39,281 nt of DNA from Nitrososphaeraceae archaeon (GTDB taxonomy: Archaea; Thermoproteota; Nitrososphaeria; Nitrososphaerales; Nitrososphaeraceae). The position numbers were made by a program, and so were the translations under genes. The notes beneath the pieces are model-generated. The model saw nothing but the letters and a program-made list of their open reading frames with translations. It made no database searches and was not told the origin of the DNA. The DNA lies in assembly GCA_009377575.1 (NCBI GenBank), contig WHTU01000028.1, positions 1-39,281 of the forward strand, written 5' to 3'. Of this stretch, positions 12,500-23,946 are shown piece by piece. How positions within the stretch are numbered: the stretch's first letter is position 1; each line of letters opens with the position of its first letter.

Positions 12500-15400
12500 T
12501 TATTTATTCATGAATTCAATTAGTGTAGATTGTTCCTTCTTTTGTTCTCGAAAGATCAGTTTCAATTCGGTAGTTAGAGATTCTACTCTGTTACGCAGAT
12601 AATCATTAATCTTAAATTCTCTACACATATAATGTGCAATATTAAGATATTTCTCAACAGAACCTCTTGTTACTGTTTGTAATAATTCATTTTCGCATCT
12701 AAGACAATTACCACGCAATGGAATTCTGCGATATTTTTCTGCACATTTACTACATCTAAATGTCTGAGAGGAATAGGCTCTCATGTTGCCCATTATATCA
12801 GGTAGGATATGTGTAGTTAGTACCATTGATACTACTTCATCTTCATCAACTGCATTAATTAATCTTGCAGTAGATATTTGCATCTGCAACTTTTCATCCA
12901 TAGTACTTAATCTAGAATATGCACTATGTTGAACATTTGTTGTTAATGATTCAGTAAAATGTGTAAACATATAGTTGAAAAATTGATCCTCTTTTCCAAT
13001 CCTATTCTTTATGATCTCTATTTTGGAAGCGATATCTGCTGCTTTAGCTCTATTCCAGGTAGCCTCGTAGAATTCTAGAGGATAGAAAGAGGATATGTCT
13101 ACGTTGTGTGCCTGTCGCTGTACTTCATAAGGTAATACAGTAGGCTGAATCAATAACGGAGCATCCATAAGTCCACCAATTTTATCGGGCAAAAAATCAA
13201 AAGAAAAATTTAGAAATGCATCCAGAAGAAGCATTATGGAGTCAGCATCACCATCGCAATCTCTTCGCTTTGCTGAATGCCATATAGGAGATGCCAGACA
13301 TACCTGAGATTTTGTGAATCCGATAATTCTACCTATAATACCAACTGATGTGTGCGGAGCAAGGCCAACAATCAAATGACCTATCAAATCTTCAATAGTA
13401 GAAATGCCATAGTAAGGTTCTAGATGATATACTTTTACTAATTCCTCATCTATAAATTTGGCCACATTAACTAGATGTTCTGCACAATCCAGAGGAAGGA
13501 CTATGTCTTGCAGCAATAGTTCGATAAGCTGATCGGATGAAGTTAGATCTTTGTCAATATAATCCTTATTATATCCTAATTTCTTAATTTTTTCAATATT
13601 GGTCATTATCCAAACTGGTTTAAAATGTGTGAGTGGTTCATTGGTTGCATCGAATCTTATAGTTCCATCTTTAAATGTATACAACTGATGTTTTTGTCGC
13701 AGCAATCCCTTCTCCAATAATTCTGCCGATTTATTTTTGCTCATCAGAGCCTTGACTCCTTTAAAAGGTTCTGCAGCCTTTAGACCGAGTTTGTGTTGAG
13801 CTTGCTCAATTACTTTACTCAAAGGAAAGCTAACAGGTGAATAGGATTTACCTTCCCTGCCACATCTACTACAACGATTGTTCTTTCCATTATACAAGAT
13901 CTCTTCTCTACAGACTATACACAAATTACGAATAGGAGTGGATGATCCGCATTTAGTACATTTTGTTCCTAGTGAAGGAAATCTACAACTATTACAAAAT
14001 CTATTCGCGATTTCTGTAAAAAAGGATGATTTGGTCTTTGAAGCCTTTAGAATATCTCTAGTGGAGCCACCTTTTGAACCTATAGGGAATAATACATGAA
14101 CTGGAGGTTTCATTTTTCGTTCTGCAGCCTTTTCAGGGCGGCCGACTCTTACTGCAATTGAAGAAGCGAATTTTGGCATCAATCGAATTCCAGAAATAGA
14201 TGAGACAAATTCTATTGTATTCAATGATTTGATATTATCATTAGCACAAAACTGTAAACCACATCTTTCTGTAGGGATGCTAGAATCCGAAAACAGGAGT
14301 CTCTGCAAAGAGTATACCTGATCAGGATTATCTATCTTAATATGTTCATCTACTAATGAATGGTATACTCCAAGTCGCTCCAAAATATCTTTTAATTGAA
14401 AATTATTCTTAATTAAGAAATAGGAACATGATGCTCCATTATTATCATCCTGAATATAGGAACAAATTAGGTTTTCCTTTAAGAATAATACTTCATCTAT
14501 ACTAATGTGTTCCCAGAAAAAAGAATACCTTGGACATAATGGTATGCCTAACATCAGACTCATCCTAAATGCATCTTTTATATTTGGTATGTCTTTGAAT
14601 GATTTGCTCATTAGTTTAATCAATTGGGGATTAATTTCTGATCTTTGCAGGTTTGAAATACTTGAATTTGACAGATGGGAGTGTAATTCTTGAAGCCATG
14701 CCTCTTCCACGTAAGACGCAGGAAGCAGCTCAGCATTATTTTCAAGAAAATCACCATAGCTTATAAGTATGTCACCAAGATAAAGGATTTTTTCAATTCT
14801 TTGTCGTACAACTGAAGCATGTTCAGCGGTTCTTACTTGCAAAACACTCCCATCATTAAGTCGTACTATTGGTGGATCTATATCATCTACCAACGCTATG
14901 GTTGATGCTTTGCCTGGTACGTCCATTTTTATCTGTGTTCCTACAACTATTGCGTGATCTAAAAGAACTGGAACTGCAGGATGGATTCCAATTGTTGCGA
15001 AGCCAGTATTACAACACCTGCCATATCTTAATCTAAATCCACCCAGCCGCTTTGGCATAGAAAGTACAGGTCTTCCAGTAATAACTTCCGACATTCTGTG
15101 ATTGGCCGCATCGTCACCATCACCAGTTTGTACTGCTCCTTTTAGATCTTTAAGCCACTCCCAGCCAACAAGGTCCAGAGCTTCGACGAGTTTAAGTAAT
15201 TTTCTACTTCTGCCAATAATACCATCATTCATTACCCTTAATGCACCCCCGCGTACCCTATCAGTAGAGATGCGCCTCATGTTTCTATGGCCTGCAACCT
15301 CTACCTGGTCTGTATCAATACCGTCAAGTTCTACGGGTAAACTTTTGATGCATTTAATAACATCTTCGTCTAAAACTTTGAATTGAAAATTACCTACTTC

Positions 15401-16012
15401 ACGTTCATAAGTACGAAGTTCTTCTACAAATCGACCGGTTTCATCATCGTAGGAGTTTGCAATGTATTTACTTATACCAACAACTTTTCGAGCGTGATCT
15501 GCTATTAACATAGTAAGTGCCGCTTCGGTTCCTCCAGCAGACCGTATTGGGCCAGCAAATGAGATAGAAAGATAGGTACTACCATCAGAATTATTTTTAA
15601 GTTGAACATTGGAGATACCCTGTAATGGTGCCACCGTCACACCTTCTGTGACTACAGCTAAGCTCACTCGGACGGCACTATCAAGTCGAGTTCTAAGATC
15701 TCCCGCATCATATTCTCCTAAAGCAATTTCTTCGGCAATCTTGAGTGCCGCTTTTTCTTTAGTAGTCCGTTCTAATAAGGTCCTTAGCCTACTTGCAATA
15801 TCAATATCATGCATTTTTGCCACCCTATCAGCCAGATCGTATGCTATTTTGGACTCAATTGTGTTTGAAGGATCTAGACCAATTTTTCTTGCTTTCGAAC
15901 CTAATTCATAAATTTGCTCGACTTTTCTAAGAATATCTTGTTGATAATTCATATAATAAACTGGCATATGGATATTTCTCAGACGAGTTATACCATCGCT
16001 AGTTATCGTCAT
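12500..16012 (-). CDS. polC: DNA polymerase D large subunit DP2
   Basis: 1170 residues, without an intein. This is the catalytic polymerase subunit of the archaeal D-family replicase. The active-site segment is RRDCDGDADSIMLLLD at about residue 915, with the two DGD aspartates intact; from memory, euryarchaeal enzymes have DGDED here, so the third acidic position is Ala. Zinc-finger Cys pairs lie at about 660-715 (CNSC, CTKC, CIVC, CSRC) and at about 1083-1107 (CSKC, CLRC). The last residues contain QSTLIEFM, a good PCNA-interacting peptide. The ATG follows the GGGP synthase gene by 13 bases, and a GGAG lies at the end of that gene about 16 bases upstream, so the two are an operon. Confidence 0.97.
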   Translation of the reverse strand: MTITSDGITRLRNIHMPVYYMNYQQDILRKVEQIYELGSKARKIGLDPSNTIESKIAYDLADRVAKMHDIDIASRLRTLLERTTKEKAALKIAEEIALGEYDAGDLRTRLDSAVRVSLAVVTEGVTVAPLQGISNVQLKNNSDGSTYLSISFAGPIRSAGGTEAALTMLIADHARKVVGISKYIANSYDDETGRFVEELRTYEREVGNFQFKVLDEDVIKCIKSLPVELDGIDTDQVEVAGHRNMRRISTDRVRGGALRVMNDGIIGRSRKLLKLVEALDLVGWEWLKDLKGAVQTGDGDDAANHRMSEVITGRPVLSMPKRLGGFRLRYGRCCNTGFATIGIHPAVPVLLDHAIVVGTQIKMDVPGKASTIALVDDIDPPIVRLNDGSVLQVRTAEHASVVRQRIEKILYLGDILISYGDFLENNAELLPASYVEEAWLQELHSHLSNSSISNLQRSEINPQLIKLMSKSFKDIPNIKDAFRMSLMLGIPLCPRYSFFWEHISIDEVLFLKENLICSYIQDDNNGASCSYFLIKNNFQLKDILERLGVYHSLVDEHIKIDNPDQVYSLQRLLFSDSSIPTERCGLQFCANDNIKSLNTIEFVSSISGIRLMPKFASSIAVRVGRPEKAAERKMKPPVHVLFPIGSKGGSTRDILKASKTKSSFFTEIANRFCNSCRFPSLGTKCTKCGSSTPIRNLCIVCREEILYNGKNNRCSRCGREGKSYSPVSFPLSKVIEQAQHKLGLKAAEPFKGVKALMSKNKSAELLEKGLLRQKHQLYTFKDGTIRFDATNEPLTHFKPVWIMTNIEKIKKLGYNKDYIDKDLTSSDQLIELLLQDIVLPLDCAEHLVNVAKFIDEELVKVYHLEPYYGISTIEDLIGHLIVGLAPHTSVGIIGRIIGFTKSQVCLASPIWHSAKRRDCDGDADSIMLLLDAFLNFSFDFLPDKIGGLMDAPLLIQPTVLPYEVQRQAHNVDISSFYPLEFYEATWNRAKAADIASKIEIIKNRIGKEDQFFNYMFTHFTESLTTNVQHSAYSRLSTMDEKLQMQISTARLINAVDEDEVVSMVLTTHILPDIMGNMRAYSSQTFRCSKCAEKYRRIPLRGNCLRCENELLQTVTRGSVEKYLNIAHYMCREFKINDYLRNRVESLTTELKLIFREQKKEQSTLIEFMNK

Positions 16013-16025
16013 TATTGTGTAATTA

Positions 16026-16766
16026 TCATCTCCTTATTGAGTGTATAATAGAAGATAGTTTATTCGCCCAATCATCATCTTTCTCTATTATTGTTCCAAC
16101 TACTATTATATCTGCACCTGCATTAGCGATTTCCTTAGCTTTCTCAGGAGTACGAACGCCACCACCTACGATTAAAACACCAGTAAAGTGTTTTCGCACT
16201 GCTGCTATCATATCTGTGGGAATACTGTGAGGTGCACCCGATCCGGCCTCAAGGTATAGAAACCTCATCCCTAAGTACTGTGCCGCCAACGCATACATTA
16301 CTGCTATTCCTCCCTTATCAAAAGGGATAGACCTAGCGTGACCAACAAACCATGCTGTTGTATGTTCACCTATAACAAGATACCCCGTAGGTAATGACTC
16401 GATGTTATATTTTTTAACTGACAGAGCTCCCAAAGCTTGTGCCCCAGTAATAAAGTAAGGATTCTCTGAATTAAGTAGGGAGCTGAAAAGAATTGCATCA
16501 GCTTTAGGTACAACTCCAGTTACATTACCTGGAAATAGTATTACAGGTATATTGATTTTAGACTTAAGAGTAAAGACCGTTTCTGCTAGTTCAATCTGAT
16601 CTGTCGCTGACGAACCACCGATAAGGATTGCAGATGCACCTAGACTCTGAGCCTTATTTCCTATAAGTGCTGCATTGGTAGAGTTTTCTGAATCAATGAG
16701 TGGAAAGCACAGTGTACCATACTTCTTTAATTCGTCTAATATGTAATTCTCGATCCTGTGTTCCAC
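16026..16766 (-). CDS. Geranylgeranylglyceryl phosphate synthase
   Basis: 246 residues, TIM-barrel prenyltransferase of the GGGPS/PcrB family, which makes the first ether bond of archaeal membrane lipids from glycerol-1-phosphate and geranylgeranyl diphosphate. Visible signatures are LIDSENS near the N-terminus, LIGGSSATD (about 48-56), FPGNVTGV, the YLEAGSGAP segment and the phosphate-binding VGGGVRTPEKA with NAGADIIVVGTIIE. Start ATG 16766 keeps the first helix. It is the first gene of an operon with the DP2 gene, linking lipid synthesis and replication in one transcript. Confidence 0.95.
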   Translation of the reverse strand: MEHRIENYILDELKKYGTLCFPLIDSENSTNAALIGNKAQSLGASAILIGGSSATDQIELAETVFTLKSKINIPVILFPGNVTGVVPKADAILFSSLLNSENPYFITGAQALGALSVKKYNIESLPTGYLVIGEHTTAWFVGHARSIPFDKGGIAVMYALAAQYLGMRFLYLEAGSGAPHSIPTDMIAAVRKHFTGVLIVGGGVRTPEKAKEIANAGADIIVVGTIIEKDDDWANKLSSIIHSIRR

Positions 16767-16770
16767 ATTC

Positions 16771-16804
16771 TAGTCATTCCTAAGCACTAGTCATTCCTAA
16801 GCAC
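16771..16804. repeat. 17-bp direct repeat, two tandem copies
   Basis: TAGTCATTCCTAAGCAC occurs twice head to tail, starting 4 bases upstream of the GGGP synthase ATG. It therefore occupies the leader or core promoter of the GGGPS-DP2 operon and may bind a regulator or be a simple duplication. Confidence 0.95.
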
Positions 16805-16869
16805 TATATATCATTGCTTTGATAAGTCACGGGTCAAATCCATAAAGGATATTATTTAGCTATACCAAT

Positions 16870-17256
16870 TTGTATAGTACATTGGCTTCTAACGAAATAC
16901 AATATAATGATATAATCAAACACATTATTACAAATTCTCTATTTACTGAACGCCAGATATATGTACTTTATAATAAATTCTCTAGGAGGAGTCCTCCTGA
17001 CAGAATAAGTAAAGGTGCATATTATAGACAGCTTAAGCAATCTGAACAAAAAGTCGTTGGAGTTCTTTATAGTCTCATTATCTTAAGATATCTAAACATG
17101 ATTGATACAGGAACATTTCATACAATAGAAGTAATATTAGATAACACATCACATCTTATGGAACGCATCAAACGTGATACGATATCCCAGAACGATAGCC
17201 GTAACGTGATATCGCTTTTAGATGAAATAATACAAAAATTAATCCATCAAAAATAA
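16870..17256 (+). CDS. Hypothetical protein, 128 residues
   Basis: Not recognised. The product is helical and basic, with FTERQIYVLYNKFSRRSPPDRISKGAY resembling a helix-turn-helix with a basic loop, a hydrophobic VVGVLYSLIILRYL helix and a C-terminal helix. A DNA-binding role is only a guess. The start is TTG 16870 or TTG 16882; no ATG occurs until the second half. It lies 34 bases upstream of the membrane-bound winged-helix gene on the same strand and is divergent from the GGGPS-DP2 operon, so it is part of the block left of the putative origin. Confidence 0.6.
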   Translation: MYSTLASNEIQYNDIIKHIITNSLFTERQIYVLYNKFSRRSPPDRISKGAYYRQLKQSEQKVVGVLYSLIILRYLNMIDTGTFHTIEVILDNTSHLMERIKRDTISQNDSRNVISLLDEIIQKLIHQK

Positions 17257-17274
17257 AAGTTATATCAATGATAT

Positions 17275-17292
17275 ATCACATTTAGATGTGAT
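17275..17292. promoter_or_regulatory. Perfect inverted repeat across the start codon of the next gene
   Basis: ATCACAT-TTAG-ATGTGAT has 7-bp arms with a 4-base centre, and the right arm covers both possible start codons (GTG 17288, ATG 17291). It may be an operator, plausibly for the winged-helix protein encoded next to it, or an RNA hairpin hiding the start codon. Confidence 0.6.
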
Positions 17293-17923
17293 GTTTGACG
17301 GCTATGACATGCCCACCCTGCTATTGGTAGTAGTTTCTTTTTTTTGTGGAGTTGCAATAATTCTATCTTACAAGGCTGTGAAATTCTTTAAGCATAATAA
17401 CAGTTCCCTAAAAAATGCAATTGTTGATAACAGAATAAAACAATATGCCGACAAATTACAAGTATATGATAAAGCAATTGCAGATCTCCAATTTAAGGTT
17501 GACATGTTAGAGATGTCGAAAAGGACTCACTTAATATCACGTGACATAGACAATAAAAAGGACGTTTCAGAACGTGATTCAGAACGTGATATTGATAGGA
17601 TATCACAAAATGGTGTGATTATTGAAGAATCTACGGAGAAACCTGCACAAACACATACGTACATAGATACCTTAGAGCAAATATTGTTATTGTTAAAGGA
17701 GAAACCAATGACGACCAGGCAAATTCAAGAGAGGGTCAGAAAGACACGTGAACATACATCCCGTATAATGAATGGATTATATCACTCAGGTTTTGTGATG
17801 AGAGATACAAGTTCTAAGCCATTTAAATATAGCATTACTGACACAGGATTACGACATTTACATGATTTGCATAATGATTTGAACATCACAACTAGGACTG
17901 AACAGAATCTAGAATCGGTATAG
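17291..17923 (+). CDS. Membrane-anchored coiled-coil protein with C-terminal winged helix
   Basis: About 210 residues in three parts. A membrane segment is at about residues 9-29 (TLLLVVVSFFCGVAIIL), then a charged, coiled-coil-like stretch at about 45-125, then a winged helix at about 128-205 (LEQILLLLKEKPMTTRQIQE as first helices, EHTSRIMNGLYHSG as recognition helix, FKYSITDTG as wing). It should hold a DNA-binding domain at the cytoplasmic face of the membrane. The start is ATG 17291 or GTG 17288, inside a perfect inverted repeat. The coding region holds several ACGTGAT words. It lies directly left of the putative origin. Function unknown; membrane-linked regulation or origin attachment are hypotheses. 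Confidence 0.8.
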   Translation: MFDGYDMPTLLLVVVSFFCGVAIILSYKAVKFFKHNNSSLKNAIVDNRIKQYADKLQVYDKAIADLQFKVDMLEMSKRTHLISRDIDNKKDVSERDSERDIDRISQNGVIIEESTEKPAQTHTYIDTLEQILLLLKEKPMTTRQIQERVRKTREHTSRIMNGLYHSGFVMRDTSSKPFKYSITDTGLRHLHDLHNDLNITTRTEQNLESV

Positions 17924-18092
17924 GCCTGTTCTGCATATTTGATTTATTATTTCAAGCTTGTTAACATTACCTTAAATCATCATTAACATGCTTTATTAAT
18001 TGCAAACTGTTAAGGAAAAATTATGAGAAGCTGGGATTAAATCATTTTCTCATTGTTTGTTAATAACAAATTCTGAAATGCAGTTCAGATTT

Positions 18093-18192
18093 ACTCTCCA
18101 GTGGAAATAAAGGGGTATATTTTGGGACATTAACAATGTTAAAAACGTTATTAACTCTCCAGTGGAAATAAAGGGGTATATTTTGGGACATT
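18093..18192 (+). repeat. Two direct 39-bp origin recognition box repeats
   Basis: Two identical 39-base copies (18093-18131 and 18154-18192) have a period of 61 bases, about six DNA turns. Each contains CTCCAGTGGAAATAAAGGGG followed by TATATTTTGGGACATT. The TCCAGTGGAAA and AGGGGT parts fit the archaeal ORB pattern as I remember it. A 22-base spacer between them is not conserved. Confidence 0.85.
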
Positions 18193-18248
18193 TTATGCCA
18201 GCAAAGTATGGTTGAGAACCAGCGTTAACACCTGATTTAGTAGTGTAT

Positions 18249-18272
18249 TACCCACACCCCTTGATTTCTTTT
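18249..18272 (-). repeat. Reverse-oriented ORB-like element
   Basis: Read on the minus strand it is AAAAGAAATCAAGGGG followed by TGTGGGTA. It shares the 12-mer GGGGTGTGGGTA exactly with the two copies in the 58-bp tandem repeat and 20 of 24 positions overall, but faces the other way across the AT-rich stretch. Confidence 0.7.
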
Positions 18273-18411
18273 GCAGTTCATATCTCATTATCTAATATAT
18301 TCATTGATAGATAGTTAAGTTAAGAATTAACAATAATTGATTCTCCTGTTTAAAATCGTTTGTTAACTTGTTGTTAACACCCTATTAGTTTAGTATCTTT
18401 CTTAAGTTGGA

Positions 18412-18527
18412 AAGGAAAAACAGGGGTGTGGGTATATTTACATGGTAATAGGAATGATGAATAAATTTGAAGGAAAAACAGGGGTGTGGGTATATTTACA
18501 TGGTAATAGGAATGATGAATAAATTTG
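18412..18527. repeat. Perfect 58-bp tandem duplication at the cdc6 start
   Basis: Two identical 58-base units (18412-18469 and 18470-18527) each carry an ORB-like GAAAAACAGGGGTGTGGGTA, a TATATTTA element and a terminal AAATTTG. The second copy's TATATTTA (18491-18498) is 27-34 bases before the cdc6 TTG (18525-18527), which is the last codon-sized piece of the repeat. So the duplication doubles both initiator site and promoter. Confidence 0.95.
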
Positions 18528-19751
18528 AATGATGATAGCCTTGATAGTATATTTGATAAAGCTGCTTCGGGAACGTCGCTAGTTGTTAAAGATAGAAGAG
18601 CATTAACCATAGATTATGTGCCTGACCGACTTCCATTTAGAGATGAAGAAAGTAAGAGTATCGCACATACTTTATCTATTGTTTTAAAAGGATCTCGACC
18701 ATCTAATTTATTGCTTTTTGGGAAACCAGGAACGGGAAAGACTGCCGTGGTTAAGAATGTCTTACATCGACTTTCTGTTAAGGGCGAGGAGTTAGGATTA
18801 GAATTAACAGTGCCATTTGTAAATGCAAAGAGTGCTAATACAGCATATAAGGTCTTACACGAAATTGCTGAAAAAATGGGCATTAATAAAGGAGAAAAAA
18901 AATTACAGGTTCATTTTACAGGCTTATCAATGGGTGAGGCGACCGACAGAATATTAGAATTTATTCAAAGAAGGAAAAAACTTTATGTGATTCTTGTTAT
19001 AGATGAAATTGATTCACTGGTGGAAAAGAATGGGGATGATATACTTTATAATTTTACTAGGGCTAACGAGAGAATCTCAACTGAATCATTTGTTAGCCTA
19101 ATAGGAATATCTAATAGTCTAACATTTAAGGATAAACTTGATCCTAGAGTTAGGAGCAGTCTCAGCGAAGAAGAGTTGGTGTTCAATCCGTATACTGTAG
19201 AACAACTGCAAAGAATCCTTGCAGAAAGGACAATGATAGCATTTAATAAAGACGTAGTTTCAAGTGCGGTTATTAATCTTTGTGCAGCTATGGCCGGTAG
19301 AGAGCATGGAGATGCCAGAAAGGCGATTGACCTTTTAAGAGTAGCAGCTGAAATTGCAGAAATAGAAAGAGCAAATAAAGTTGAAGAAAAGCATATTAGA
19401 TTAGCACAAGAAAAAATTGAAAAGGATACAAATTATGAAGTTTTGAGAAATTCAACAACGCATACCAAAATACTAGTGTTAGCAGTATTGAAATCAAGAA
19501 ATGGCAACACTGGAGAAGTATATGAAATATACTCAGATATATGTAGACGTATTGAGCAAGAACCATTAACCCAACGTCGAATAACCCAAATAATGAGCGA
19601 GTTAGATCAATTAGGACTAATAACTAGTGATGTAATAAGTCAAGGCAGATATGGTAGATCACAAAAACTTAGGATCACCGTGCCACATTCAACTGTGAAG
19701 GAAGCCTTAAAAGAGGATTCTATCCTCACAGGATTATTTTCTATTGATTAA
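18525..19751 (+). CDS. cdc6: Origin initiator Orc1/Cdc6
   Basis: 408 residues, typical length. This AAA+ ATPase recognises the origin and loads the MCM helicase. The segment DYVPDRLPFRDEE (30-42) is the family entry motif, Walker A is at 66-73 (GKPGTGKT), Walker B at about 158-163 (VIDEID), sensor 1 around ISNSLTFKDKLDPRVRSS, and a C-terminal winged helix at about 320-408 binds DNA. The start is TTG 18525: the frame has a TGA at 18516 and no ATG near, and NDDSLDSIFDKA suits the family N-terminus. Its promoter lies within the ORB-bearing duplication, suggesting self-regulation. It converges with the DP1 gene, with 11 bases of overlap. Confidence 0.96.
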   Translation: MNDDSLDSIFDKAASGTSLVVKDRRALTIDYVPDRLPFRDEESKSIAHTLSIVLKGSRPSNLLLFGKPGTGKTAVVKNVLHRLSVKGEELGLELTVPFVNAKSANTAYKVLHEIAEKMGINKGEKKLQVHFTGLSMGEATDRILEFIQRRKKLYVILVIDEIDSLVEKNGDDILYNFTRANERISTESFVSLIGISNSLTFKDKLDPRVRSSLSEEELVFNPYTVEQLQRILAERTMIAFNKDVVSSAVINLCAAMAGREHGDARKAIDLLRVAAEIAEIERANKVEEKHIRLAQEKIEKDTNYEVLRNSTTHTKILVLAVLKSRNGNTGEVYEIYSDICRRIEQEPLTQRRITQIMSELDQLGLITSDVISQGRYGRSQKLRITVPHSTVKEALKEDSILTGLFSID

Positions 19752-21309
19752 AATCCATTATAAATGGTTGAAGTGTAGACAGATCAACTATAACTGCAAC
19801 TCCAGGATTAGGTATAATGCCCATGGTTCTTTGATAGTTTGTCTGTCCCTGCCAAGTTCCAGAATTTACTATTAATGTTCCACGGTAATTTTGAGCATCT
19901 AGAACATGTATGTGTCCTGAATGAAATATGTCTGGAACTTCAGTAATTACCATATGGTCTTCTTGTTCGGGTGCTATAGGAGTACGTTCTCCGTAAATAG
20001 GAGAAAGATGTCTTGCCCTCAATAATACTTTCATTGCTTCAGCAGGCTTGGCATAACTTAGATCAGGGATCGTACCTATGATATCATCTAGACTCTGTCC
20101 GTGGTACATTAGTATCTTTACACCATTCAATTCGATTAAACTGGGATTTCCAAGCATCTTAAAATTTTGAAATGTGTAAAGTTTTTCAGAGTTTTGCCTA
20201 GGAATAGAAGGTTGTGGTAATGCTCTTCGACCAGGATCATGATTTCCAGGAATAACAAAAACATTAATGTGTTTAGGTATACGTGAGAGTAAGTCTATTA
20301 CATGTGACATCTGACTATTAATATTTAATTCAAGTAATTCTTTGTCTTGATTAGGAAATATTCCTATACCATCAATTAAATCACCGCCAATACATAGAAA
20401 TTTGATCTTCCTTACAATTTCATCATCAACTGCTGATATCCAATTCAAAAATTTCATAAATGCGGTTTCCATGAAATATATGCTTCCTACATGTAAGTCT
20501 GAGATTAATACCACGTAGGATTCAGATTTGGCCCTGTTTGGCAAATGATCTGGAATATCAGGTGATATTATATTTTTTATAACGAAACTTTGACTTTTCC
20601 CACTGTTCTCTAATTCTAACATAACCATTTGATCTGTGGTAATCAACGATCCCTGTTTTTTTATATCCTCAGTCGTACCCATCGCATGTAAATCTCCACT
20701 AAAATCATCTATCACTATTTCTAATCCATGACGCTTTAACTGTCTTGACATAACCAAGCCAGCTACAACCATTGTTGAGGATAATCCTGAAAATTGTTCA
20801 TATCGCATGTATGGTTTCTGATTTCCAGTATCTGTATTTTTTTTCTTCAGAGTTTTTACTCTTGTGATTCGTCTACTATTGGGACGTAAGGATAAGATGC
20901 GCATAGATTTTTCATACCTGCTTCTAAATAGCGAAATATACCCTTCAACTCCTTCTCCACTATTAATTATAGGAGTTGGATCTAAAAGTACTCTGTATGA
21001 TATTGGTTCTGATGTATCACTATTGTGTAGATGTAATGAATCTAATGATGAAGACTTATTGCAAGAACTACTGTTTTGAGATCCTCCATTTTTAGAATGT
21101 TTATCAACGACCATTTTTATATCTTCAACCAGAATTAAAGAATTATCTTTACCAATTACCTTGGCTTTAATTATGTCTTGAATGATCCCTAGAATATCTA
21201 TATCAAGCCCTTTAAGCATTTCAAAAGCGTCAGGATGTACCTGATATCCTTTACTAATTGCAAAACATAGGGCATTGGATATTTCTGTTCCGAAATCCAA
21301 ATTGTCCAC
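19741..21309 (-). CDS. polB: DNA polymerase D small subunit DP1
   Basis: 522 residues. DP1 carries the proofreading 3'-5' exonuclease of the archaeal D-family polymerase and holds the DP2 catalytic subunit. The calcineurin-like phosphodiesterase metal motifs appear in order in the C-terminal half: ISDLHVGS (about 270), GGDLIDGIG (about 308), IPGNHDPGRR (about 353), MYHGQS (about 400) and HSGHIHVLD (about 463). An OB-fold region precedes them, and the N-terminal part (1-60) is the helical domain. With all metal ligands present the exonuclease is probably active. A low-complexity Asn/Ser linker lies near 75-100. Its partner DP2 is encoded about 3.7 kb away on the same strand, on the other side of the putative origin and cdc6. 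Confidence 0.96.
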   Translation of the reverse strand: MDNLDFGTEISNALCFAISKGYQVHPDAFEMLKGLDIDILGIIQDIIKAKVIGKDNSLILVEDIKMVVDKHSKNGGSQNSSSCNKSSSLDSLHLHNSDTSEPISYRVLLDPTPIINSGEGVEGYISLFRSRYEKSMRILSLRPNSRRITRVKTLKKKNTDTGNQKPYMRYEQFSGLSSTMVVAGLVMSRQLKRHGLEIVIDDFSGDLHAMGTTEDIKKQGSLITTDQMVMLELENSGKSQSFVIKNIISPDIPDHLPNRAKSESYVVLISDLHVGSIYFMETAFMKFLNWISAVDDEIVRKIKFLCIGGDLIDGIGIFPNQDKELLELNINSQMSHVIDLLSRIPKHINVFVIPGNHDPGRRALPQPSIPRQNSEKLYTFQNFKMLGNPSLIELNGVKILMYHGQSLDDIIGTIPDLSYAKPAEAMKVLLRARHLSPIYGERTPIAPEQEDHMVITEVPDIFHSGHIHVLDAQNYRGTLIVNSGTWQGQTNYQRTMGIIPNPGVAVIVDLSTLQPFIMDFNQ

Positions 21310-21405
21310 CTTGACTATGAAACCGCCATATTTAATTACATTTCTATAACAGATAAATGAATAATAACTACAAATAATTATAGGAGCAAATACCCATACA
21401 TTGAA

Positions 21406-21948
21406 TTGTATCTCACCATCAAGAGACGTTTACTGTATCTTGCATTAGGTATAATCACTTTTCTTATCTCGTATTATTGGGGTTCATCAATATATATGAG
21501 CGGCTCAGAAGTAAATGATCTAAAAAACCGGTTCATGGATCAAATTAAAGATATTGATCAGACAGGGATATTCATTAATAATGCAAAGATTGCATTAGGC
21601 ATGTTTGTTCCATTACTAGGTGTAGGTTTAGGAATTTTTTCTGGTTTTTCAACAGGTATGGTATTTAATGCAATAGCAGCAACATCTGCTAACCTTAATG
21701 ATGTCTCACCTTTACTGATTCTTGTTACTCCTTTTGGATTAATGGAAATTGTTGCTTACGGTCTTGCCATATCCAGAAGCGGTATGCTCTTCTATTCTTT
21801 ATTAAAGAGAAAGTATTGGAGGGAATATCTTCTGTCTACTTTAGTAGAGATAGGAGTTGTAGCAATCCTACTCTTGAGCGGGGCAATTATAGAATGGGAA
21901 ATGATCGCTAGATTGAATGGATTATCCGATACTAGAATTAGCATTTAA
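21406..21948 (+). CDS. SpoIIM/DUF95-type integral membrane protein
   Basis: 180 residues with four membrane segments at about 9-26, 64-90, 101-122 and 143-163. The segment with IFINNAKIALGMFVPLLGVG and the following F(N)A(I)AA stretch is the hallmark of the 'stage II sporulation protein M' family, which is widespread in archaea that do not sporulate; the name is historical. The start is TTG 21406, giving LTIKRRLLYL as a basic lead to the first segment. It is divergent from DP1, about 96 bases apart. Function unknown; membrane remodelling has been suggested for the bacterial relative. Confidence 0.85.
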   Translation: MYLTIKRRLLYLALGIITFLISYYWGSSIYMSGSEVNDLKNRFMDQIKDIDQTGIFINNAKIALGMFVPLLGVGLGIFSGFSTGMVFNAIAATSANLNDVSPLLILVTPFGLMEIVAYGLAISRSGMLFYSLLKRKYWREYLLSTLVEIGVVAILLLSGAIIEWEMIARLNGLSDTRISI

Positions 21949-22022
21949 CTGTTTGTCATTTATCTGTTAGACAAAAATTAGAATTTCCTATATACGACAA
22001 AAATAATAGGTAAAATTTAGAT

Positions 22023-22148
22023 TTAAATCTGACTTTCTCCACAGGCAGGGCAAATCCGCAACTTTTTGGACATTTTCGCTCCACACTCTATACAATATTT
22101 TATTGCATCATCTGTTTCGGAAGTAATATCAACAGATTTATTTTCCAC
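22023..22148 (-). CDS. Mini zinc-ribbon protein, 41 residues
   Basis: The frame encodes DDAIKYCIECGAKMSKKLRICPACGESQI at its C-terminus. The two CxxC knuckles (CIEC, CPAC), ten residues apart, are the classic short zinc-ribbon found at the ends of archaeal proteins and as free mini-proteins. The start is taken as GTG 22148, since no ATG is in frame. The product is acidic before the ribbon. It lies between the SpoIIM-like and PAC2 genes on the opposite strand. Confidence 0.6.
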   Translation of the reverse strand: MENKSVDITSETDDAIKYCIECGAKMSKKLRICPACGESQI

Positions 22149-22247
22149 ACACTGATATGTATGTAATAAAATTTTAAGTCTAAATTATATTTAAATCCAT
22201 CTTGCAATAATTTTTATTCCGGAAAATAATTCTACTAACAGTAGAGT

Positions 22248-23000
22248 ATGCTTAATTTAAAGATTCATAAGATTCCCACTTTTGTCTCACAACCAACTAT
22301 GATTGCTGCTTTGCCTGATATGGGCAATGTTGCAGGTATGGGAATGACTCTTTTGGCTACGAGACTTGCAGCTGACCTCTTCGCCGAAATTTATGCATTT
22401 TGGCCACCTTTTGTAACATATAACCAAGGCATCATTAGGTATGTTCAGTCAAGTTATAAATTTTATTGGGTTTCTAAATATGATCTTGTAATATTTACAG
22501 GAGATTTTAATCCTTCTGATCCACGAAGACTGTACGAAATATGCTACGAAGTTCTGAAAATGGCTGAAAGAGTTGATGCAAAAATATTGTATTCAATAGG
22601 CGCAGCCTTGAGACAAAATACCTCTACTTCTACTTCTAATTCAAGTGGGGTGTATGGCGCAGTGAATAATGAACAGATTGTTGATAAGATAAGTAAATTC
22701 AATATGAATATCTTAGAGGGAGAAGGACAGATTATAGGATTTAATGGTCTAATATTAGGACTTGCAAAAGAAAGAGGATTGAATGCGATGTGCATTCTGG
22801 GCGAAATCGATAATCCTAATGTTATCCAACCTATGACTGCTAAGGCTATTCTACATACATTAACAAAGATTCTAGGAATCCCTTCTTTGGATATGAAAGA
22901 ATTAGAAGAAGAAGAAAAGCGCAAAAAGTTTATGGAACAGCAAGCGAATTACATAGAAAATGTGATGGAACATGGGGGCAAACCCCCTGGGATAGCGTAG
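22248..23000 (+). CDS. PAC2-family (proteasome assembly chaperone-like) protein
   Basis: 250 residues. The N-terminal PTMIAALPDMGNVAGMGMTLLATRL segment and the FTGDFNPSDPRRLYEICYEVL and LGEIDNPNVIQPMTAKAIL segments match archaeal PAC2 proteins (COG1938/COG2047), relatives of eukaryotic proteasome assembly chaperone 2. Whether the archaeal versions assist proteasome assembly is not established. The Lys/Glu-rich end (KELEEEEKRKKFMEQQ) is a helical tail. Start ATG 22248 fits. It is followed 121 bases later by cdvA on the same strand, so the two may be co-transcribed. Confidence 0.88.
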   Translation: MLNLKIHKIPTFVSQPTMIAALPDMGNVAGMGMTLLATRLAADLFAEIYAFWPPFVTYNQGIIRYVQSSYKFYWVSKYDLVIFTGDFNPSDPRRLYEICYEVLKMAERVDAKILYSIGAALRQNTSTSTSNSSGVYGAVNNEQIVDKISKFNMNILEGEGQIIGFNGLILGLAKERGLNAMCILGEIDNPNVIQPMTAKAILHTLTKILGIPSLDMKELEEEEKRKKFMEQQANYIENVMEHGGKPPGIA

Positions 23001-23121
23001 ACTGGAATAGAAGTTAGTAAGCTAGCAAAAGTTTTCGAATTCGCTTACGATGAAATCTTTTGCTAAATAATTCAACAATTTTGACAATATTGCCATTATA
23101 TCAGCTTAATAAAGCGTTTGC

Positions 23122-23946
23122 ATGAGTGAAGTAAAGTTAGAGTTTATTGGTAAACAGGTTAAGGATATGTACGGAACCTACATGGGAAAAGTTATTGGTA
23201 TGGTGACAGATATTGATGGGTCTATAGAATCTGTTAGTGTAGATTGCGGTTATGCAGGGTTAAAGCAGTTAGTATACGAGCAATTATTAGTACAGGGTGA
23301 CTACGTGATCTTTATTCCAAAATGGAGATTGGATGTCCAAAAGTTACTTAGGCAGAAAAACCTCGCATTACAAAGGATCAAAGCATTACAGGAGATGGTT
23401 ACAGCTAATGATTTGATGAGAGAGGACGTAGAATTGGTCTATATAAAGTACCAGAAGAGATTGCAAGACCTTGAGGATAAAGGAAAAATAGTTCTTGAAC
23501 AACTACAAGAAAGACTGAACCAAATAGATACGGAAAGCCAGAATATAAAATCGGTACTATTTGACGCTAAGTTACAGTATAGAAGCAATGAGATCACCGA
23601 AGAAACATATCAACAAATTAGCCTATCTACAAATGATCTAATAGAACATATTAACTTAGAAAAAGGAGAGATCAATAACGTCATATCTAGATTAAACCAA
23701 CAGACATTTGAGAGGATAGATTTGAATTCAGTACAAAATTCATCTATATCGGATCAACCAAAATCTAACTCAAACCTTGAATCAAATTCGCAATCCCCTG
23801 AAGGTGATATCCCTGTAACAGGGCCTCAAGCTGTTAGTGCAGCAGCAGACAATGACTACAATAATGATCATCATAAGACTATTCGTAAGGAAACTGATGA
23901 TGAGACTGAAACTAGCTGGCTTAACCAGGTTCTACAACATGATTAA
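23122..23946 (+). CDS. cdvA: Cell division protein CdvA
   Basis: 274 residues. CdvA is the archaeal-specific first component of the Cdv (ESCRT-III-like) division machine; it binds membrane and DNA and recruits CdvB. The N-terminal beta domain (about 1-75, VKDMYGTYMGKVIGMVTDIDG) is PRC-barrel-like. A long coiled coil follows at about 75-200 (LALQRIKALQEM to EINNVISRLNQQ), and then a flexible Ser/Asn/Pro-rich linker. The C-terminal TETSWLNQVLQHD is a short conserved-looking motif that may be the CdvB-binding tail; that is inference. Presence of CdvA with PolD points to Nitrososphaeria. cdvB and cdvC are not in the window, as is usual for dispersed thaumarchaeal cdv genes. Confidence 0.9.
   Translation: MSEVKLEFIGKQVKDMYGTYMGKVIGMVTDIDGSIESVSVDCGYAGLKQLVYEQLLVQGDYVIFIPKWRLDVQKLLRQKNLALQRIKALQEMVTANDLMREDVELVYIKYQKRLQDLEDKGKIVLEQLQERLNQIDTESQNIKSVLFDAKLQYRSNEITEETYQQISLSTNDLIEHINLEKGEINNVISRLNQQTFERIDLNSVQNSSISDQPKSNSNLESNSQSPEGDIPVTGPQAVSAAADNDYNNDHHKTIRKETDDETETSWLNQVLQHD

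Follow-up and report, generated by a model that had tools for sequence, protein, structure and literature searches.

Positions 17924-18527 of the window, which is the whole contig of 39,281 bp from a draft genome of 3.89 Mb in 380 contigs, are read with high confidence as an oriC1-type chromosomal replication origin of an ammonia-oxidising Nitrososphaerales archaeon from soil. This reading, made from the DNA and its counterparts in relatives, is the best one because the region combines exact matches to the consensus of initiator boxes (ORBs), an Orc1-1-type gene as neighbor between the genes of DNA polymerase D (PolD), inverted boxes around an AT-rich core, uniqueness within the genome, and a conserved layout. 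An origin as such is of an already known kind; an array of TGTTAA sites and an element at the center of the AT-rich core make it a variant undescribed in the literature searched. The primary paper on the Nitrosopumilus maritimus origin lay outside that search, in which we found no description of either the array or the central motif, and an earlier description is possible.

Initiator boxes, initiator gene, and conserved layout

Five exact GAAAnnnAGGGGT cores were found within 382 bp, at 18104-18116 (+), 18165-18177 (+), 18256-18268 (-), 18415-18427 (+), and 18473-18485 (+), in precisely the order and orientation given by an initial annotation of this DNA. Matches to the core with at most one mismatch numbered 8, where 1.9 would be expected, and 100 shuffles never gave as many. 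Genome-wide (3.89 Mb), 13 exact matches were present, and the 8 outside the origin were singletons on 8 separate contigs (compared to 6 genome-wide matches for a reversed-core control). The box cluster is unique in its own genome, and widespread occurrence of the boxes, which the initial annotation had named as speaking against an origin, was not found. Chance as the source of the cluster is excluded (Poisson P of ~2e-18 for five cores within 382 bp).

The boxes fall into two classes. ORB-A1 (18097-18116) and ORB-A2 (18158-18177), both on the + strand, carry the TCCAGTGGA dyad (TCCAnTGGA) and GGGGT, and the full dyad ORB, TCCAGTGGAAAnnnAGGGGT, has two exact matches in the genome, both in this origin (at 18097 and 18158). 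Both boxes are also exact matches to the common archaeal ORB expression TCCASTKGAAAYRAAGGGGT, published with Ori-Finder 2 (PMC4164010), where 0.02 matches would be expected at up to 3 mismatches, which bears out the earlier remark that this block resembles the archaeal ORB. They lie 61 bp apart in two repeat units, 18089-18131 (with TCCAGTGGAAATAAAGGGGT as its core) and 18150-18192, with 98% identity; the repeat had been recognized in the initial annotation, and its length is 43 bp rather than the 39 bp given there. The remaining boxes (cores at 18256 [-], 18415 [+], and 18473 [+]) are without the dyad, have a longer G-run (GGGGTGTGGG), and are degenerate relative to the ORB consensus. The edges of the AT-rich element are formed by these G-extended boxes: the reverse box (18249-18275, - strand) forms its left boundary and pairs with the forward box at 18408-18434 as an inverted repeat (81%) around 146 AT-rich bp.

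The gene downstream of the boxes, orc1/cdc6 (18525-19751, + strand), encodes a 408-amino-acid initiator of the Orc1-1 type with Cdc6_lid, Cdc6_C, and TIGR02928 matches. Its best PDB sequence match was 2v1u (E value of 7e-95), and almost the whole protein could be aligned with 2v1u and 2qby, archaeal initiators of known structure. Among the parts conserved with these are the winged-helix region and two that contact DNA in both structures, the initiator-specific region and the GRYG wing. The named relatives of the protein were from Nitrososphaerales archaea, and no other Cdc6_C gene was found in the genome. A second gene of the orc1/cdc6 family (L037:4677-5843, on contig C360 of the same genome) scored just above the TIGR02928 cutoff; such a gene was found in most genera of the family but not in most genomes of genus g2. 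We found no ORBs upstream of this second gene, whose presence makes a further, ORB-less origin possible.

The origin and cdc6 lie between the genes of the PolD large subunit DP2 (12500-16012, - strand) and small subunit DP1 (19741-21309, - strand), and in most relatives the locus is likewise beside the PolD genes, with the PolD-cdc6 order conserved. From 12500 to 23946, PolD DP2, oriC, cdc6, PolD DP1, PAC2, and CdvA stand together, a neighborhood of DNA metabolism and division whose order is largely kept in relatives.

The order of two forward boxes, a reverse box, an AT-rich stretch, and a forward box was present in all 33 genomes of the family (f1), representing 11 genera, which makes the region very probably oriC. 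The search for the same boxes upstream of cdc6 in related genomes, proposed in the initial annotation, thus recovered the skeleton in every member of the family. The spacing of A1 and A2 was 60 to 62 bp in all 33 genomes, and the gap between the reverse and forward boxes was 133 to 182 bp (mostly 138 to 148 bp); box-to-box spacing was held, and the distance to the cdc6 start was variable. Families f2 and f3 have the same box order with variant cores (GGTGT for GGGGT), and family f9 has a comparable layout. The earlier interpretation of the opposed boxes around an AT-rich core as an archaeal origin is supported by the inverted boxes, the Orc1-1-type gene, and conservation together. In genus g13 of f2 (L158, L159, L160, L161, and L163), a third forward ORB was observed upstream of cdc6, with ~41 + 60 bp spacing and GGTGT cores. 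Helical phasing of the spacing between A2 and the reverse box (68-71, 81-83, 90-95, and 105) was considered and is suggestive at most, with a p of ~0.04 for four states that is phylogenetically confounded.

A skew extremum is a frequent predictor of origins and not a strict criterion in archaea. GC skew, put forward as a check in the initial annotation, was sampled in three closed relatives (G005, G016, and G025; values for G023 were ambiguous), with twenty 20-kb stretches taken per genome. In these stretches skew followed gene orientation (r of 0.70 to 0.92), and there was no switch at cdc6, that is, no half-chromosome difference centered there. The test is uninformative here, a negative result for the method and not against the origin; a 2026 survey reported low cumulative GC skew amplitude in archaea (PMC12999951).

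The right-hand duplication and the AT-rich element

The right-hand side of the origin consists of two exact copies of a 58-bp unit on the + strand. The first (18412-18469) contains the ancestral right-hand G-extended box (core at 18415-18427) and a TATATTTA leader, and the second (18470-18527; core at 18473-18485) has the TTG start codon of cdc6 as its last three bases, so that the gene does begin at the last repeat, as had been noted. The spacing of the first copy to the reverse box equals that of the single box in relatives; since the right-hand box of these one-copy relatives is at the position of 18415, the copy next to cdc6 is the additional one. The five boxes of the initial annotation are all exact cores but not a shared set: relatives have four of them in common, and the fifth stems from a duplication seen in this assembly only. 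An assembly error as the source of the fifth box is a possibility to be taken seriously, if somewhat unlikely. In its favor, the two copies share 100% identity, and none of the other four genomes in the genus has the duplication junction; against it, ordinary reads could span a tandem of 116 bp, and recent slippage would produce a duplication of the same appearance.

The stretch between the opposed boxes, a putative DNA unwinding element (DUE; 18269-18414), measures 146 bp at 75% AT, in agreement with the approximately 145 AT-rich bases previously described. Only ~1.6% of the 100-bp windows of the contig were less stable than the best window of this gap. At its center lies TTGATTCTCCTGTTTAAA (18337-18354, + strand), an exact TTGATTN5GTTTAAA and the sole such match in 3.89 Mb. 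An element of this TTGATT-N5-GTTTAAA type, with a few variants, was found in 33 of 33 family genomes, 66 to 70 or 77 to 79 bp from the reverse box and with its center mostly ~3 to 10 bp off the midpoint of the inverted box pair. Because 6-mers shared inside the DUE alone were only weakly above shuffles, the case for the motif is made by its position. Position also bears on whether the element is a BRE/TATA promoter of cdc6 instead of a part of the origin, a reading we consider unlikely: TTTAAA is like an archaeal TATA box and the motif is on the cdc6 strand, but its distance to the cdc6 start ranges mostly from ~95 to 188 bp. Being fixed relative to the reverse box and variable relative to cdc6, the central element more probably has an origin role, and a promoter role is possible.

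The TGTTAA array and neighboring proteins

The initial annotation had missed an array of 12 TGTTAA/TTAACA sites between 17959 and 18379 (on the + strand at 17959, 18008, 18058, 18137, 18361, and 18372 and on the - strand at 17961, 17983, 18130, 18225, 18327, and 18374). Twelve sites in 17924-18524 versus 27 in the remaining 38.7 kb amount to 20 per kb at the origin and 0.7 per kb elsewhere in the window (~30-fold), and the 39 sites of the whole window equal the chance expectation. With ORBs masked and dinucleotide shuffles as the control, TGTTAA was the most overrepresented hexamer in the origin regions of 12 representatives (eleven f1 genera and one f2), with 125 sites versus 11 expected and presence in 12 of 12.

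Sites of the array are often paired, either as palindromes (offset 2 or 7; TGTTAACA or TTAACANTGTTAA) or 11 to 12 bp apart, as would be expected of a dimeric binder. The palindrome TTAACAATGTTAA (18130-18142), between ORB-A1 and ORB-A2, occurs in 3 places in the genome; all 33 family genomes have a recognizable form of it (8 to 12 of 12 positions) between A1 and A2, at an offset of 12 to 14 in all but one.

The array was present in every origin examined of f1 (33 genomes), f2 (six loci and G025), f3 (one), and f9 (21). All four families had amoA in the genomes tested, and the genome under study carries archaeal amoA. In ten families without amoA no array was found, the densest 500 bp upstream of cdc6 containing 0 to 4 TGTTAA/TTAACA sites; nor was a substitute array found in these families, in which the outstanding motifs were usually ORB-derived. 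The array thus seems confined to ammonia-oxidising archaea, as far as the genomes compared indicate. We regard it as very improbable that the sites are low-complexity, AT-rich intergenic sequence without function. The region is indeed AT rich and the 6-mer signal within the DUE by itself is weak, but the excess over dinucleotide shuffles is large, the density is the same in origins with 52 to 53% AT (L011, L167, and L173) as in those with 77% AT, the ten array-less origins are mostly of similar AT content, and outside the origin at most 4 to 5 sites per 500 bp were found in 400-kb samples of three family members. A second spot with 5 sites per 500 bp was observed in G023 at L057:9445, ~54 kb from its cdc6.

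Two proteins are encoded next to the origin on the + strand. One (17288-17923) combines a predicted transmembrane helix with a coiled coil and a winged-helix domain, in which an REH..R motif is invariant, and its orthologs (e.g., L147, L209, L144, and L150) flank the origin throughout the order, in every family examined. The other (16870-17256), a 128-amino-acid, all-helical protein and likewise a conserved origin neighbor, belongs to no known family; invariant Q, G, R, and Q positions were shared with its orthologs, and no match was found among Pfam, NCBIfam, or PDB folds. At the fold level the best target-normalized matches of the winged helix included AspA, the centromere-binding protein of plasmid pNOB8 (PDB 4rs8 and 5k5q; TM score of 0.84 by target length for 4rs8), at 14 to 18% identity and with ordinary MarR-type regulators scoring equally, so that the likeness is a lead only. 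An anchor between origin and membrane is a possible role for this protein.

As factors specific to ammonia-oxidising archaea both neighbors were rejected, as they also occur in families without amoA; since the pair is also found where the array is absent, nothing in these comparisons links either protein to the array. The second orc1/cdc6 paralog is not favored as array binder either, because most genomes of genus g2 and all of f2 keep the array with the cdc6 copy alone found. Origins of ammonia-oxidising archaea may conceivably possess a second, clade-specific cis-system, in which a putative protein bound to the array would control initiation, anchor the origin, or segregate it, with the membrane-anchored winged-helix neighbor as one candidate; we consider this doubtful. 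If true, the tether version would amount to an origin-membrane tether in archaea.

Proposed mechanism and comparison with known origins

By analogy with Sulfolobus and haloarchaeal oriC1, Orc1/Cdc6 would bind the dyad ORBs A1 and A2 as well as the opposed G-extended boxes on either side of the 146-bp AT-rich element. This inverted pair would direct MCM loading and melting at that element, and forks would then depart both ways. A second putative factor would probably sit on the TGTTAA array and the inter-ORB palindrome and shape, control, or anchor the complex. As the right-hand box adjoins the cdc6 start, Cdc6 may repress its own gene, and occupation of this box would perhaps lower cdc6 transcription. 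That the boxes are mainly an operator for such autoregulation, with initiation elsewhere or without a fixed origin, is hardly credible: in L003, a single-copy relative, 52 bp do separate the right-hand box from the cdc6 start, with the TATA-like TATATTTA beside the box, and some archaea are reported to replicate without origins (PMC5663688), but autoregulation would call neither for opposed boxes with 146 AT-rich bp between them nor for a tandem pair ~420 bp upstream, spacing is held among the boxes while the start-codon distance varies, the TATA-like TATATTTA is not conserved in the family, and one origin has been mapped in a related thaumarchaeon (PMC4010727).

Few microbes are as abundant as the ammonia-oxidising archaea, yet the reviews consulted report only one of their origins as mapped. 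Read as an origin, the layout offers a precise anatomy for testing which boxes are essential and what spacing they require. The clade-wide array and central element imply that one or more additional factors bind the origin, and candidate genes adjoin it. As sister lineages lacking amoA are without the array, its appearance can be dated. The array-binding factor, once found, would show replication control in ammonia-oxidising archaea.

As in other thaumarchaeal cdc6-proximal origins, ORB repeats lie directly upstream of cdc6. N. maritimus has one origin mapped by marker frequency (PMC4010727), and the origin of Nitrosocaldus cavascurensis was placed before ORB repeats and a cdc gene by analogy with it (PMC5797428). 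The skeleton described here is shared with f9 and f2 genomes, and the array too with those tested; A1 and A2 are full GGGGT ORBs, in contrast to the GGTGT of f2 and f3 origins, and the extra right-hand box created by the 58-bp duplication is unlike these cdc6-proximal origins.

In Sulfolobus oriC1, an inverted ORB pair around the DUE is essential, and the ORB2-DUE-ORB3 arrangement contains the ucm motif bound by UBP (PMC12141716). Our origin resembles it in the inverted ORBs around an AT-rich element, the short conserved motif near the midpoint, and the Orc1-1-type initiator. Identity of the central motif with ucm was rejected, as its placement is similar but its sequence (TTGATT-N5-GTTTAAA) different: a search of 17924-18527 for the 11-bp ATTATACAAAC, allowing 2 mismatches, gave no hit, and the total for this motif in the window was at chance level. 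Two features go beyond the Sulfolobus arrangement, namely the upstream tandem of ORBs and the TGTTAA array. Haloarcula oriC1 likewise requires a pair of inverted ORBs flanking an AT-rich element, and haloarchaeal oriC1 has G-extended inverted boxes in which mutation of either G-string abolishes oriC1 (PMC3936714). The G-rich extension GGGGTGTGGG of the boxes that bound the DUE recalls these, whereas no G-rich inverted repeat enhancer was seen inside the boxes here and the other elements differ.
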